NCBI GenBank assembly: GCA_021292105.1
Contig: CM037874.1
Span: 58,754,539-58,818,538 of the forward strand
Source: Anadara kagoshimensis
Taxonomy: Eukaryota; Mollusca; Bivalvia; Arcoida; Arcidae
Reading direction: 5' to 3'
Length of the DNA: 64,000 nt
The notes below the pieces were generated by a model. It worked only from the letters and a program-made list of their open reading frames with translations. It ran no database searches and was not told where the DNA came from. The position numbers and the translations under genes are program-made. Positions 11,115 through 63,598 of this stretch are shown in pieces; the first letter of the stretch is position 1; every line of letters begins with the position of its first letter.

Positions 11115-11250
11115 ATATGATTTGACATTGCGAAACAGACTGTGTTAGATTGTTAAATCTTGTTAAATTTTAGTAAGGTGTGTATGATTTGACATTGTGA
11201 AAGGGACTGTATGTTGGGTTGTTAAAATATTGAAGTTTTATTTTAATAAG
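11115..11250 (+). repeat. 68-bp direct duplication just upstream of the TRIM-type gene
   Basis: The string tatgatttgacattg occurs at about 11116 and again about 68 bp later, each followed by a diverged aactgtgttag-like and attgttaaa segment. It lies in the probable promoter or 5' UTR. Confidence 0.6.
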
Positions 11251-12780
11251 ATGGAGCAAAATATGGATTGTTTAAACGGTGTACATCCAGTTGACATGGA
11301 AACACAAGCTTGTAGAAAACACCCGGATGAGATTATAAAGAAATTCTGTTGTATATGTGACGAGTTGGTGTGCAAAATATGCATTTTAGGATTACATAGA
11401 TATCATGAGCTGACGGACATTGAAAACGTTATTGATCAAAAGAAACGCGAAATGAGCGAGCTACGATTTGATATTTTACAAAGCCGCATTCCTAATTTAA
11501 AAGCAATTATTGGAACAGTGAAACAAGTTAAAGAAGAGAATGAAAGAGAAAGTTCGAAGACAGAGGAATCTATTATACAAAGATCTATACAGCTGAAGGA
11601 CGCCATTGACCAGATCACTAACACGTGTATTGAGGAAACACACCATGTTAAAACAAGTAGGGACGAAACATTGACCAAAACAATAAAAAGTTTGGAAAAC
11701 ACATTGCAGGATCTTTCACTTTGTGCCAAAGCCTGTCAAATTGTTGTTAGTTCCAAAAACAGACTACAGATGGTTCAGCAATCAAAACAGGTTAAAATTC
11801 AAAGTGACAAAATAGGAACGTCTGCTAATGTTCCGTCACTGAAACCATTCCAATTTAACGCGGGAAAACTCTCCAGCAAAGGAATTGATGCAAACTTTGG
11901 AACGGTGTCCGGGAACGTTCATGCCACCCCGTTCGATCATTTTGAATTGATTTCGTCACTTAAACCTTCTAAAGGTGGGATTAACTTCATTATTCCGAGG
12001 ATCAACGAAGCATGGACAAACATCGAGGATTCTAATGACTTGAGCTTGTTAGACATCGAAGGACGAATTCTAACCACGATTGAAATGGAGATGACGATGG
12101 AAGGTATGGCGGTTATGGCTAATGGGAACTTAGTTCTTTCTGCTCCAGAAAAGAAAGCTGTGATGATGCGTTCAACAGACGGATGCTTGACAAAGCTGAT
12201 ATCAATGGAACCGTTGAAACCATGGGGGCTATGTCTGTCACAAAATGGCGACATTTTAGTGTGCGCTTTTGAAGAAAATGGAACGCCCAGCAAATCTAGC
12301 AGACGACGCGCTGTTCAGCGGTTTTCGATCACTGGTCAGCTTTTAGCGTCAATGGAACAAGAAGATGGCATAAACCTGTTCAATTTGCCTTATCGGGCAC
12401 GTGAAAACAAACATTTTGACATTGCAGTGGTGGATGTAATAAGTAAAGAATCCGCCAGAATTGTTGGTCTACAGCAAGACGGGACAGTTAAATTCATATA
12501 TGACGGCACAAGAAGCATAAACCCGCGTTCTAGATTCAACCCGTATGACGTCTGCTTTGATTCTATAAACAACATTCTTGTAGCCGACAAGGACAGTAAA
12601 ACCGTTCATATGCTGGACGAAAATGGATTTTGTTTGATGTTTTGTATGACATATACGGAGTGTTTCCCCACGTGTCTGGGATCATCTTGTGATGGAACCA
12701 TCTGGGTCGGTTATAGCAATGGGAAATTGGAAGTTTGGAGACCGAAATATCATGCTCTTATTTATCATCACGACGAGTAA
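11251..12780 (+). CDS. TRIM-type protein: B-box, coiled coil, propeller-like C-terminus; no RING
   Basis: A 509-residue intronless gene. The start at 11251 (aagATGGAG) is the first ATG; the open frame reaches further up only through a GTG. The B-box zinc finger has ligands C21, H24, C33, C36, C41, C44, H49 and H52. Residues about 60-190 are Lys/Glu/Gln-rich and form a long coiled coil. From about 235 onward blades such as LSQNGDILVCAF, FDSINNILVADKDSKTVHML and GSSCDGTIWVGYSNGKLEVW resemble NHL/WD-type propeller repeats of TRIM2/3/45/56-like proteins. There is no N-terminal RING, so it is unlikely to be an E3 ligase by itself; it may act as an adaptor or oligomerising partner, possibly in innate immunity as in the expanded molluscan set (inference). 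The single exon suggests retroposition or membership of a tandem intronless clan. Confidence 0.88.
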   Translation: MEQNMDCLNGVHPVDMETQACRKHPDEIIKKFCCICDELVCKICILGLHRYHELTDIENVIDQKKREMSELRFDILQSRIPNLKAIIGTVKQVKEENERESSKTEESIIQRSIQLKDAIDQITNTCIEETHHVKTSRDETLTKTIKSLENTLQDLSLCAKACQIVVSSKNRLQMVQQSKQVKIQSDKIGTSANVPSLKPFQFNAGKLSSKGIDANFGTVSGNVHATPFDHFELISSLKPSKGGINFIIPRINEAWTNIEDSNDLSLLDIEGRILTTIEMEMTMEGMAVMANGNLVLSAPEKKAVMMRSTDGCLTKLISMEPLKPWGLCLSQNGDILVCAFEENGTPSKSSRRRAVQRFSITGQLLASMEQEDGINLFNLPYRARENKHFDIAVVDVISKESARIVGLQQDGTVKFIYDGTRSINPRSRFNPYDVCFDSINNILVADKDSKTVHMLDENGFCLMFCMTYTECFPTCLGSSCDGTIWVGYSNGKLEVWRPKYHALIYHHDE

Positions 12781-15029: not shown

Positions 15030-15061
<32 letters not shown>

Positions 15062-15167
15062 CGAAAAGTAAACAAGTTCACACAAGTAGTAAAATATATA
15101 GAAAAACAAAAAGTGAAGATTCATCGAAATTTCGTACTATTTATCTACATGTTCTATTGTAAATACA

Positions 15168-15206
15168 CATTCCCAACCGGTTTCATTGAATTTCTTCAGG
15201 GGAATG
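15168..15206 (-). ncRNA. Predicted hammerhead ribozyme, left terminal repeat
   Basis: The minus strand reads the same 39 nt as the motif at 16805-16843: a CATTCCC/GGGAATG stem I, a CTGAAGA core, a GAA core and a palindromic ACCGGT stem III with a T before the cut site. Identity with the right copy is complete. Confidence 0.6.
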
Positions 15207-15257
15207 GAACTGTTTTCTTGACGTAACTATATTTATTATTATGACGTCATAGAACAA

Positions 15258-16610
15258 TTATTGCCGATTACCGCGCCGTCTACCATTATAACATTGGGGG
15301 AGGGGCATATAATCTCCATAATGATAATTATGCATATGAATATTGTCTCTATTACAGTTTACCCCTTTATTACTCCTCCAAGAATGGTATGGCGGGTTAA
15401 TTGTCTCTTGTTTGTTATCAAGGTTCTTAGTTGCGCGTATGTAGTTCGGATGTTTTGGATACCATGATTTCTTTCTATGAGATTTCATCACATCAGTATT
15501 CCCCGAACACTTGTCTACGCTAGATTTTACCACGTCGGCAAATGATTTCATTTTGTCCATGTCGGGACCGTTTTTTATGGCACATAATATCTGCTTCTTT
15601 GTGTTTGACTTTGCTGTTCCTTTATCTCTTTTCTCCGGTTTTCCGACTTTTCCGGTGTTATGTGAATTTAGAGATTTGAAAAATGGATTTTTACCATGGA
15701 ATTTATCTTGAAATTCTACCCGGTCTTTTTTCCTTTCTCTTTTCTCTGGTTTTCCTACTTCTCCGGTATTATCGGAAAATAGAGATTTGTTATTTCTCTG
15801 TTTGAAAAATGGATTTTTACCATGGAATTTATCTTGAAATTCTACCCGGTATTTTTGCATCCATTTTTCTTTCTTTTTCCAATGTTTTTGAGATATTTTT
15901 TCATGTTCCATACATACTTGATTCCACATCATTTTCAGTAAATTGCATACTTTTGGTGTGTTTTGATCCCGAAACATGTTGTGCATATCCATATCTATGT
16001 TTTTGTATTCTTCAGTACATTTGGCACTTCTAAGCCTTAAAAGTTCTATCTCCGTATTAAAAGTTTGTAAAGCCAGAGATTCCCGGCATTTGCGTTGTTC
16101 ATCCGGTTCTGTTTTTATCTCTCTTATTTGGAATTTTCTTGGGATAATGATTGGATTGGAAGACTTCCAGGAATTGTACACAGCATATTTCCGTTCGTTT
16201 TTCAGCTTATTCCAGAATTTTGACTTCCTTAATCCAATTTTTTCATTCCACAAGTTGTTGATCTTTTCTTTAAATTCCATGGCTTTAAGTTTTACCGTAA
16301 TTGCAGTGGATACGTTTTTCTTCTTCAAATCAGCTTTTTCTGCACATGTCCTTCCGAAACATGGTCCAATGAGATCGTTATTTGACAGTGAATTCTCTAC
16401 GGTATTGTCTCGGGATATTTCGGAATCCTCTTTGTTCTGATTATTGTTTTTATCATCTTGAGGATTTTCGTCCATTAATCCAGTAAGCAAATTATAGATT
16501 TCACTGACTTTTCCACTAAGTAAAGTTATATCTTCTTGAATGCACATAATAGTAAGCTGTAAATCTTCTTTGGATATTTTCGTAGAATGGTAACAATTCC
16601 TCGATGCCAT
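15258..16610 (-). CDS. 450-residue basic coiled-coil protein inside the ribozyme-flanked element
   Basis: Not recognised. The intact frame starts 24 bp inside the right-hand repeat and its stop lies about 4 bp from the left-hand repeat, so the ORF fills the element exactly. Residues about 10-50 form a coiled coil (SKEDLQLTIMCIQEDITLLS). A Lys-rich middle carries an internal duplication in which VEFQDKFHGKNPFFK and then GKPEKR occur twice. The C-terminus is Asn/His/Tyr/Arg-rich (NYHYGDYMPLPQC) and ends RRRGNRQ. Coiled coil plus a basic tail is what one expects of an ORF1-like RNA-binding chaperone, but no zinc knuckle or known fold is visible. The intact length suggests recent selection or recent insertion. 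Confidence 0.65.
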   Translation of the reverse strand: MASRNCYHSTKISKEDLQLTIMCIQEDITLLSGKVSEIYNLLTGLMDENPQDDKNNNQNKEDSEISRDNTVENSLSNNDLIGPCFGRTCAEKADLKKKNVSTAITVKLKAMEFKEKINNLWNEKIGLRKSKFWNKLKNERKYAVYNSWKSSNPIIIPRKFQIREIKTEPDEQRKCRESLALQTFNTEIELLRLRSAKCTEEYKNIDMDMHNMFRDQNTPKVCNLLKMMWNQVCMEHEKISQKHWKKKEKWMQKYRVEFQDKFHGKNPFFKQRNNKSLFSDNTGEVGKPEKRERKKDRVEFQDKFHGKNPFFKSLNSHNTGKVGKPEKRDKGTAKSNTKKQILCAIKNGPDMDKMKSFADVVKSSVDKCSGNTDVMKSHRKKSWYPKHPNYIRATKNLDNKQETINPPYHSWRSNKGVNCNRDNIHMHNYHYGDYMPLPQCYNGRRRGNRQ

Positions 16611-16804
16611 CTTCCGTACTTGTGGTAGATAAATATCGAAAAGTAAACAAGTTCACACAAGTAGTAAAATATATAGAAAAACAAAAAGTGAAGATTCATC
16701 GAAATTTCGTACTATTTATCTACATGTTCTATTGTAAATACACATTCCCAACCGGGTTCTATGACGTCATAATAATAACTATAGTTACGTCAAGAAAACA
16801 GTTC

Positions 16805-16843
16805 CATTCCCCTGAAGAAATTCAATGAAACCGGTTGGGAATG
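16805..16843 (+). ncRNA. Predicted hammerhead ribozyme, right terminal repeat
   Basis: Parts in order: stem I strand CATTCCC (16805-16811), core CTGAAGA (16812-16818, fits CUGANGA), stem II AATTCAAT (weak), core GAA (16827-16829), ACCGGT (16830-16835), T (16836), then GGGAATG (16837-16843), which pairs perfectly with the first strand. ACCGGT is self-complementary with no room for a loop, as in minimal hammerheads that work as dimers. The predicted cut is after 16836. The weak stem II is the main doubt. Confidence 0.6.
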
Positions 16844-17031
16844 TGTATTTACAATAGAACATGTAGATAAATAGTACGAAATTTCGATGAATCTTCACTT
16901 TTTGTTTTTCTATATATATATATATGGCGCAAACGTGTGACTCCATTATTTGTAGTACCCTAAAGACACCATAAATACATATAAGTGGAGTAATGATGCT
17001 TGAACCCAAGCCAAGATTATATCACTTACAT

Positions 17032-47500: not shown

Positions 47501-50500
47501 AATAGAATCAGGAATTCCTAGGGAAACGTCAAAAACAAAGATACTAATCCGTGTCCAAATCACAATGCCAAAGCAAAATAAAAACCTATAGACTGGCAGC
47601 CTATACGTCAAACACGGCAAAATACACCAGAAGGGTGGGGCCGGGTGCTCCTGAGAGGTATGGCCGGGTGCTCCTGAGAGGCGAGGCCGGGTGCTCCTGA
47701 GAGGTGAGCACCTTCTGTCTATCGCCCTTCCCCCCGTCATGAGTGTATCTACCTTCACCCTGTCATGAGTGTATCTACCTTCACCCTGTCATGAGTGTAT
47801 CTACCTTCACCCCGTCATGAGTGTATCTACCTTCACCCCGTCATGAGTGTATCTACCTTCACCCCGTCATGAGTGTATCTACCTTCACCCTGTCATGAGT
47901 GTATCTACCTTCACCCCGTCATGAGTGTATCTACCTTCACCCTGTCATGAGTGTGTCTACCTTCACCCCGTCATGAGTGTATCTACCTTCACCCTGTCAT
48001 GAGTGTATCTACCTTCACCCTGTCATGAGTGTATCTACCTTCACCCTGTCATGAGTGTATCTACCTTCACCCCGTCATGAGTGTATCTACCTTCACCCTG
48101 CCATGAGTGTATCTACCTTCACCCTGTCATGAGTGTATCTACCTTCACCCTGTCATGAGTGTATCTACCTTCACCCTGTCATGAGTGTATCTACCTTCAC
48201 CCTGTCATGAGTGTATCTACCTTCACCCTGTCATGAGTGTATCTACCTTCACCCCGTCATGAGTGTATCTACCTTCACCCTGTCATGAGTGTATCTACCT
48301 TCACCCCGTCATGAGTGTATCTACCTTCACCCTGTCATGAGTGTATCTACCTTCACCCTGTCATGAGTGTATCTACCTTCACCCTGTCATGAGTGCTTAG
48401 TTTTTATGTAGGAATAAGGATTGTTTAATGTTACTTAACGTCGCATAAGCAAATTTTAAGCTATTCGCGACAAGAAATACTTTATTTATCTCTATGAATT
48501 AATCTATGAACAAGTTCGTGTATGCTTGTGAAGTGCGAGTATGTTTTATGGCCTGTCTTGTACCAACGCACTCTCAGGGCGACTTTATGGTGCCAGCTCA
48601 CGAAGGAAGACAAGTGTACCACTCCTCCGGCTACATTATAATGACACTGGATGAACCAGTAAAAGCCAACGGCAAGGGAAATTCACTCTGCTACATGTGG
48701 TCTGAGCGGGACTCGAACTCACAGTGGTGAGAGACCTGGATTTGAAGACTGACGTCTTATTCATTAATAGGCAACATCGGTCTTGTAGGAATAAGGACAT
48801 GGCAACTGCTATCTTTAATATTTCATTTCATGAAAAATAAAAACCTAGTAAATAAAAGCTAAACATAGGTCTCAGAAAAGAGACAAAAAAACTTTCTCGC
48901 TATAGGACATTTCTCTAAAAATATGAAAAGGACATTTTAAAATAACTTCTTTGCAGGTGTCATATCTCAATCTTATATGCAGGTACCCGGTCGTACGAAA
49001 TACGTTTAAAAAAAGAGAAATGCAATTTTACTTGACACTTTAAAGTATACAGTTCTCATGTACGTAACTTTGAAGAGCAAAATTAAACGTTAGACAGTCG
49101 ACATAAATAAATGAAAACACAAACATATATATAGTGCATTGCATACACTGCCCTGATTTTTGAAGTTTATTTATAAATGCCTTACAGCAGTTAAAAAATA
49201 AACTAGATAGATCCAGTATAAGCTAGACTATCAGCTAGACTATCAGTGGAAGTTTAAGTGTTAACTTACCTTGACAGTTTCAAAGTTGTTACTTTGACAT
49301 GGATTAGTATGTTTGTTTTTGGTTAATATGTCAGTTGCGCTGTTTGAAATGGTTGTGCTTATTTTTATTTTTACAAAATGGTTTGATTGTAATATCATTA
49401 CAGAATACCCATACCATTAGTATGTTCCCAATGTTCATTCGCCCCAATTAAGTGTTGTTACCCGGCAGCCCATTAACAGCCACCTGTAGGTCACATACAG
49501 GCTGTGATTGCGTACTGGCTAATTTTTCTTAAATATATAAAAATACATATTTTCTTAAACCCCGGCCGGGTCTGACCCAAGACTTGAAAGTGGGTAGTGA
49601 CTGTTCTTTCGCCAAGCACTCGGCATAACGAAATGAAAGTCATGGTTCTTTCGGATGGGAACTTAAAATAAACGAGGTCCCGTGTCACGGTGGGCTTGGC
49701 ACGCTAAAGAACCCTGCTGTATAATGCCATAAGCGCAACGCACAGGCAAAATTTCTGCACTTTCGTCTATAGCTGGCGACGTCTCGATATAAGTGAAATA
49801 TTCTTGACTGGTACGTTAAACACCATTACTCACTCACTCACTCACTTAAATATGCAACCAGCAATTATGTGATCAACTAAATGTGTTCATGTGCATGTCC
49901 AAACCAATAGTATATAGTCCCCTAAATAGACATGGGACCAATCCAAACTAAAAGGGGCTTCAATCACGTGGTACGAACAATGGAAGCTAATATTATTCAC
50001 AAGAAGCATTACTGGTATCAGGTGGTTGGAACAAATACCGAATTCTGGAATAATTAGAAATAAATTGGTAAATTTATCTTAAAACAATTTTTATTATTTT
50101 GGAAAAGTCCAACTTTAAATTACTGTTTTTAAAAAGAGGAACTATTAATATGCTATTTTGAATGGATATAGTCCGTTCATGGAGAGATCACCCAAAACAG
50201 ATGCTAGTATTTGCGCCAATCTTGATATTGTTTTTGGATTTCAAAAGTACCATTGGAAAATGGCTATATCACCATATATGTTTTGCAAGTCAAGGTCACA
50301 GTTTCACAATCATTTCTTAGCTAATATTTTCCTAAATCTAAATCTGGAATCTTTCAAATGTCAATAAAATTGTTAGTTTTCCACTGACATTTTGATGCAT
50401 TTAAGGTGTCATTTTGAAGATTGGTGCTATAATCTATATTTTAATTTTGTCGAAATTTTTATTTGAAAACCCGTAAAATTTAACCAGATTTACGTTAAGG

Positions 50501-62379: not shown

Positions 62380-63598
62380 TAGTCTAAATGCTCAAAATGA
62401 CTATACACATAGTACAGAGGCTCAAAATGAGTCTGTATGCTCAGACAGAGTCCATAGGTTCAGACTGTCTACAGAGAGTCAAGGGGGTCCGAATGAGTAC
62501 AAAAATAGTATTATAAATAATGAATCTACAAACTCAGATTGAGTCTATATTCTTAAAATGATTATACAGGCTCAGTTTGAATAAACAAAATGAGTATACA
62601 AGTTTGGAAATTATATATAAAGACTCGGAATGAGTCTATAGTGACTCAGATTGAGTTTATAGACTCAGAATGATTACATAGGCTCATTGAATATACAGAC
62701 TCAAAATAAGTCTACAGAGTCTGATTGAGTCTACAGGGCTGCAATGATTATACAAGCTCAGATTGACAATTTATACACAAAGAGTTTACAGACTCGGAAG
62801 CAAGTCTACACTCTACAGGCCCAGAATGATTCTATAAACTCAAAACAGACTCGGAAGCAAGTCTACACTCTACAGGCCCAGAATGATTCTATAAACTCAA
62901 AACAGACTCGGAAGCAAGTCTACACTCTACAGGCCCAGAATGATTCTATAAACTCAAAACAGACTCGGAAGCAAGTCTACACTCTACAGGCCCAGAATGA
63001 TTCTATAAACTCAAAACAGACTCGGAAGCAAGTCTACACTCTACAGGCCCAGAATGATTCTATAAACTCAAAACAGACTCGGAAGCAAGTCTACACTCTA
63101 CAGGCCCAGAATGATTCTATAAACTCAAAACAGACTCGGAAGCAAGTCTACACTCTACAGGCCCAGAATGATTCTATAAACTCAAAACAGACTCGGAAGC
63201 AAGTCTACACTCTACAGGCCCAGAATGATTCTATAAACTCAAAACAGACTCGGAAGCAAGTCTACACTCTACAGGCCCAGAATGATTCTATAAACTCAAA
63301 ACAGACTCGGAAGCAAGTCTACACTCTACAGGCCCAGAATGATTCTATAAACTCAAAACAGACTCGGAAGCAAGTCTACACTCTACAGGCCCAGAATGAT
63401 TCTATAAACTCAAAACAGACTCGGAAGCAAGTCTACACTCTACAGGCCCAGAATGATTCTATAAACTCAAAACAGACTCGGAAGCAAGTCTACACTCTAC
63501 AGGCCCAGAATGATTCTATAAACTCAAAACAGACTCGGAAGCAAGTCTACACTCTACAGGCCCAGAATGATTCTATAAACTCAAAGCAGACTACTTGA
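62380..63598 (+). repeat. 57-bp higher-order minisatellite built from about 19-bp units
   Basis: Fourteen nearly identical 57-bp units occupy 62789-63598. Upstream (62380-62788) diverged short units of the ctcagaatgagtctata type continue the array. Because 57 is a multiple of three, one frame stays open for 284 codons (repeat TRKQVYTLQAQNDSINSK), which I regard as incidental. The last unit ends 8 bp before the stop codon of the minus-strand gene at 63607. Confidence 0.95.

Follow-up and report, generated by a model that had tools for sequence, protein, structure and literature searches.

A hammerhead-like motif without a regular stem II in the pseudo-LTRs of a probable non-autonomous Penelope-like element of Anadara kagoshimensis

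A 64,000-nt stretch of contig CM037874.1 of the bivalve Anadara kagoshimensis (hereafter the window) contains, in two opposite orientations, a 39-nt sequence that resembles a hammerhead ribozyme reduced to its bare minimum. The locus raises the question of whether so small a motif is a self-cutting RNA and, if it is, what part it could play in the element that carries it.

The motif and its structural parts

On the plus strand the motif reads CATTCCC (16805–16811), CTGAAGA (16812–16818), AATTCAAT (16819–16826), GAA (16827–16829), ACCGGT (16830–16835), T (16836) and GGGAATG (16837–16843). Its outer 7-mers are perfectly complementary, and the same 39 nt are found, identical, on the minus strand from 15206 to 15168, just as the initial annotation had read them from the sequence. 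As RNA, the motif consists of CUGANGA, GAA, the palindromic ACCGGU and a single H between the two strands of stem I, and it agrees with the conserved core of type I hammerheads at all positions (C3–A6, G8, A9, G12–A14, A15.1–U16.1 and H17). Stem I is open and formed by the two ends of the motif with seven perfect pairs. Stem III consists of a single A-U pair capped by the palindrome CCGG and becomes a 6-bp helix in a dimer only. Stem II, by comparison, is replaced by an 8-nt linker with at most one A-U pair. In the young family A (described below, as is the older, diverged family B) such a pair could close this linker, and A-U, A.G or A.A stand at the same place in family B, the 10.1–11.1 pair being missing altogether from the G and A forms of the latter. 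Because stem II is absent or limited to one A-U pair, activity cannot be taken for granted. Inspection by eye of the other parts of the pseudo-LTR (pLTR) gave no consistent pairing partner for the linker, and a search of the genome for canonical stem II in one of its forms had two matches, not above a rough chance estimate of 4–5. A stem II shared by the two motifs of a dimer was rejected on reasoning alone, as each linker stays local in the double-hammerhead layout. The motif is probably a minimal type I hammerhead whose stem II has been reduced to the 8-nt linker, and this assignment, with the cleavage that it predicts, forms part of the explanation that we prefer.

The core pattern without stem I, CTGANGAN{3,12}GAAACC, has two matches in the window against 0.06 expected from 100 shuffles. 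For the core together with a palindromic hexamer and a perfect 7-bp stem, the composition-based expectation is 1e-6 per window and 0.017 per genome. The motif pattern had no match in IMG/VR. In an Rfam scan of 96 nt, RF00163 (Hammerhead_1) was the best of three matches, although its score (Table 1) is below the gathering threshold of 34 bits, and a 6-kb scan with Rfam returned no hammerhead at E up to 10. The covariance check proposed in the initial annotation is therefore borne out as to the model that was matched, but not as to the score. A family B copy was matched best, and weakly, by RAGATH-1-hammerhead (17.4 bits; gathering threshold 56.3) and not by RF00163. The folding energies were -21.7 for the double-hammerhead layout, -29.9 for the lowest-energy dimer and -8.2 for the monomer; since the double-hammerhead layout lies above the lowest-energy dimer, the active form is not the one that folding programs prefer.

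The carrier element

Read on the minus strand, the element is composed of an inverted arm, a truncated pLTR, a 450-aa open reading frame (ORF) and a full pLTR (Table 1). The unit measures 1,575 bp, and the arrangement is of pLTR–ORF–pLTR units that are partly in tandem. At the head-to-head junction in the window, pLTR position 76 abuts pLTR position 1 directly.

Table 1. Features of the hammerhead-carrying element (coordinates of the window)
Feature	Position	Strand	Remarks
(TA)n target, left	15037–15061	.	adjoins the direct 3' end, CGATAT
3' pseudo-LTR	15063–15255	- (element sense)	193 nt; palindrome TGACGTCA at its positions 7–14; at least 41 genome matches listed at 98–100% identity, among them at least 29 across the full 193 nt
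Hammerhead-like motif, sense copy	15168–15206	-	predicted cut 15175/15174; RF00163, 18.2 bits, E 0.028
450-aa ORF	15258–16610	-	pI 9.6; 14% lysine
5' direct pLTR copy, truncated	16638–16755	-	begins at pLTR 76 (CCGGTT/GGGAATG), without the 5' half of the ribozyme
Inverted arm	16756–16917	+	pLTR 1–162, without the 31-nt tail; 1 of 162 nt differs from the 3' pLTR
Hammerhead-like motif, copy noted first	16805–16843	+	within the inverted arm; predicted cut 16836/16837
(TA)n target, right	16911–16925	.	adjoins the end of the inverted arm, its first bases overlapping the arm

The outer ends of the element recur among the family A loci. The direct arm ends at TTTTCGATAT beside TA repeats in all 23 loci examined in full. 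The inverted arm ends at pLTR 162 in 15 of these 23 and also at a further place, L092, and TA repeats adjoin the ends of inverted arms at 14 loci listed, the arm of L059 not being among them. The second start thus lies 31 nt inside the first (193-162). L092 and another additional place, L091 (both described below), are likewise in TA repeats. Two of the loci, L047 and L048, share a flank and may represent one duplicated insertion. The inner ends of both arms vary among loci, as truncated copying would give. Breakpoints within the pLTR, too few to assess clustering at the cut site and read after the fact, are at about positions 1, 36, 39, 45, 76, 76, 86 and 123 in the 23 loci and at 28 in L091. 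Direct arms that end near the cut site (pLTR 82) do so at 76 in the window and at about 86 in L051; as these ends are not at 82, they do not show processed templates, and the 5' ends of genomic copies do not coincide with the cut site.

Pseudo-LTRs, tandem units, an inverted arm, a tail of about 31 nt and an AT-rich target are all features of Penelope-like elements (PLEs) and are all present here. A PLE reverse transcriptase (RT) is absent from the unit, where the 450-aa ORF stands alone and takes up the available space, and we therefore call the element non-autonomous and PLE-like. The genomic copies, the anatomy of the pLTRs and the Rfam match support the proposal, made from the window alone, of a hammerhead-like motif whose stem III is palindromic and which lies in the terminal repeats of a young element, here one of Penelope type; the family assignment in the initial annotation was largely right. 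A unit-length circle or a dimer in cis needs two motifs on the same strand, so the circularisation envisaged at the same time does not fit the window copy. That copy has one complete motif per strand, as its 5' direct pLTR begins inside the motif, so that cleavage as a cis dimer and release of a circle would both be beyond it, though not beyond tandem copies. At four of the 23 loci (L040, L043, L046 and L050) a single strand carries at least two complete motifs.

L050 (1768–4773) is a tandem array of a 456-bp unit with an internal deletion, and each of its two arms carries motifs. Three units in a row have the same sequence, from which the unit in the inverted arm differs at three positions. 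This derivative is retrozyme-like in size and layout.

The 450-aa ORF is the sole long ORF of the unit. Its protein had no match in Pfam at E up to 10 or in PDB at E up to 1 and no relative in IMG/VR, and a single-sequence structure model (mean pLDDT 39.5) was too poor for use. The ORF is full-length and without stops in at least three of the 23 loci (the window, L043 and L051), and a decayed relative of it is carried by the family B copies L061 and L062, themselves a duplicated pair (94% over 4.3 kb). In four aligned blocks between families A and B, with stop codons skipped, pS is 0.71–0.75 and pN 0.26–0.32, values for which no exact pN/pS ratio is given because pS is saturated in two blocks. 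The comparison clearly points to slower change of the protein than of silent positions, and hence to an RT-less unit that has kept its protein gene.

On the minus strand at 15114–15123, upstream of the second start site, lies TGAATCTTCA, a sequence that many family B copies share with family A; it is perhaps a protein-binding or RT-start element.

Copies in the genome and conservation of the motif

The 1.115-Gb assembly (36 contigs, the window included) was searched with two patterns. The pattern CTGANGAN{3,10}GAAACCGGT had 56 matches versus 6 for the reversed control, and these 56 were sorted into 45 of form A (CTGAAGAAATTCAATGAAACCGGT), nine of form B (CTGATGAA[AC]TAGAA[TG]GAAACCGGT) and two that look like chance matches. 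The pattern CCCTGANGAN{7,9}GAAACNNGTNGGG, which includes part of stem I, had 55 matches (45 of form A and 10 of form B) versus none for the reversed control; these are not independent, most being copies of one family. The linker is 8 nt long in all 55, although the pattern allowed 7–9.

The identity of the listed pLTR matches (Table 1) indicates that family A is young, as the initial annotation had held. All 45 form A motifs lie within 23 loci, namely the window and 22 others that were fetched. Over 70 nt, 35 of the 45 motifs are identical, a comparison in which only stem I, the linker and the flanks are informative, the core having been fixed by the search pattern. Variation of stem I within the family is limited to two changes of the first base from C to T and one lost C.

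A search independent of the motif, with the last 443 nt of the ORF, gave 64 matching pieces (all 32 candidates scored), which fall in the same 23 loci except for two places, C11:32632085–32632653 and C7:3475924–3476002. The first (L091; G000:C11:32631700–32632120) runs from pLTR 1 to about 28 and then into TA repeats, upstream of the ribozyme. Copying of L091 appears to have begun at a possible third RT start site that precedes the ribozyme, and not every copy has the fixed ends, since this one stops at about pLTR 28 in (TA)n. In the second (L092), the pLTR extends to 162 and is followed by TA repeats, and single bases are missing from the motif and elsewhere. The motif is thus intact in 23 of the 25 known family A places, the other two being one truncated and one damaged. 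No family B pieces were reached by the search with the ORF DNA. A search with the family B pLTR gave at least 43 matches, and 20 further places among them were read. The alignment of the two families drew on the 30 loci L061–L090; L066 and the chance loci L069 and L070 fell away, and the other 27 contributed 30 family B motif places.

Family A differs from the majority sequence of B at N7, at four of the eight linker positions, at H17 and in the outer pair of stem I, which is C-G in A and U-A in B. Two of the 14 stem I positions differ, both in this one compensatory pair, as compared to 46 of 98 positions in the flanks, whose alignment between the families is loose (p 0.02). None of the 15 positions of the core and stem III differs (p 0.0003), a value that overstates the case because family B was found by a pattern that fixes the same 15 positions; as a sign of selection, stem I alone is free of this bias. 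Single family B copies have decayed from the majority by 11.7% in the flanks, 11% on the 5' side of stem I and 8% in stem III, so any selection acted on source lineages rather than on each copy. Uncompensated variation of stem I had been named in advance as evidence against a ribozyme. Between the families the variation is compensated, but among single decayed copies it is not.

Mechanism, alternatives and known systems

The explanation that we consider the most probable is a non-autonomous Penelope-like element with a minimal hammerhead that is predicted to cleave tandem transcripts in dimeric form. A reverse transcriptase of PLE type, provided in trans, would cut both strands of (TA)n and would prime at internal AU-rich sites of the RNA, CGAUAU and CUAUAUAU, giving the head-to-head arms. 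Where a transcript spans at least two units, one motif could pair with another through ACCGGU/ACCGGU and both stem I helices, and the paired motifs would then cut at GUU/GGG, trimming multimers to unit length. The basic 450-aa protein may bind the RNA of the element. A bolder version is rather doubtful: a long-lived PLE lineage without RT, whose own RNA-binding protein holds the stem-II-less hammerhead fold and which jumps into (TA)n with a foreign PLE RT.

The most serious rival, for which we see a minor though appreciable chance, is that the motif is a fossil, the descendant of a hammerhead that has been inactive since stem II was lost and is copied along with the pLTR. The missing stem II, the sub-threshold Rfam scores and the 5' ends that do not mark the cut site would all agree with inactivity, the near-identity within family A reflects youth and not selection, and the way in which B came to be found accounts in part for the conserved core of the two families. 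An inactive relic is less compatible with the behaviour of stem I, which was left free by the pattern that found B and nevertheless changed by one compensatory pair only, or with the uniform length of the linker. A chance origin, in which a short inverted repeat in the pLTR accidentally has the letters of a hammerhead, could appeal to the shortness of the motif and its weak covariance score. We regard it as highly improbable and rejected it on the shuffle count, the composition-based expectation and the compensation in stem I: the diverged family has the motif at the same place of its pLTR.

Spread in the manner of retrozymes, in which a unit is excised by two motifs on one transcript, circularised by a ligase and turned into tandem copies by rolling-circle reverse transcription, would account for the loci with two or more complete motifs on one strand and for the identical consecutive 456-bp units of L050, and circles of animal retrozymes are described in PMC7229834. 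Most of the copies examined, however, are single and truncated, the window copy with its one motif per strand could not have supplied a circle, and PLEs form tandem units without circles having been shown for them. Furthermore, animal retrozymes, as presented in PMC7229834 and PMC7761336, are short (150–450 bp) and non-coding, and, although they too are non-autonomous and combine a hammerhead with tandem units, which occur here at some loci, the present unit has 1,575 bp, a conserved ORF and PLE-like ends. We consider this route improbable.

The preferred explanation, a PLE-like element mobilised in trans, has close parallels among described elements. Like the element described here, Penelope of Adineta vaga combines pLTRs, including an inverted one, with a 31-bp tail and a palindrome at the pLTR 5' end, and its pLTRs are reported to drive mobilisation in trans (PMC3846280). 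The enzyme of PAc, an element of Anolis, cuts both strands of AT-rich DNA and starts reverse transcription internally at two adjacent sites in vitro, and thus resembles the present element in its AT-rich target and internal starts; a related ribozyme depended on protein, and insertion did not require that it cut (PMC11167929). In contrast to both, which encode RT and endonuclease, the element described here encodes a basic 450-aa protein without a Pfam match and has (TA)n as its target.

The hammerhead itself is most similar to the minimal type I hammerheads of PLEs and Terminons (PMC7761336, PMC6155905), which are likewise located in pseudo-LTRs, have the type I order and a weak or absent helix III, and are proposed to act as dimers. 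Here, however, helix II is reduced too, to the 8-nt linker, and the unit lacks RT. Minimal PLE hammerheads without helix III are described, with their role given as unknown, in PMC7229834 and PMC7761336. The same sources describe hammerheads whose helix III has one pair and a palindromic tetraloop and which perform better as dimers; HHR_Amex1 of the axolotl, an amphibian type I hammerhead, is alike in this respect, but the amphibian ribozymes have loop 1–loop 2 contacts, a helix II and repeats of about 300 bp (PMC7229834). Palindromic stem III is also known from repeat-type hammerheads in PMC3088659, which, like the two sources above, connects short forms of it with activity as a dimer. As for the reduction of stem II, an active hammerhead with a one-pair stem II has been described, but it is of type II and has a pseudoknot (PMC3088659). 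The model of RAGATH-1-hammerhead (RF03152) also has a one-pair stem II and differs in a longer stem III and an upstream hairpin, and the match to it, as stated above, is a weak one. No report of a missing stem II was recognised among the titles and abstract beginnings surveyed.

PMC7761336 calls the role of hammerheads in Penelope-like elements a mystery. Family A offers a clean natural system for the question of whether cutting matters: its copies are numerous and nearly identical, RT starts recur at two sites, the target is a single sequence, and there is a diverged sister family. The motif also makes a case for asking to what size a natural hammerhead can shrink and whether a protein of the element replaces stem II.

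Elsewhere in the window, an open frame of 530 codons lies on the plus strand at 11188–12780; its start reads like what we take to be a B-box zinc-binding (TRIM-like) protein. A 57-bp tandem repeat with 14 copies and 99% matches (62788–63592) lies within an open frame of 289 codons, and further tandem arrays consist of 136-bp units at 1647–2687 and 26-bp units at 47726–48395.
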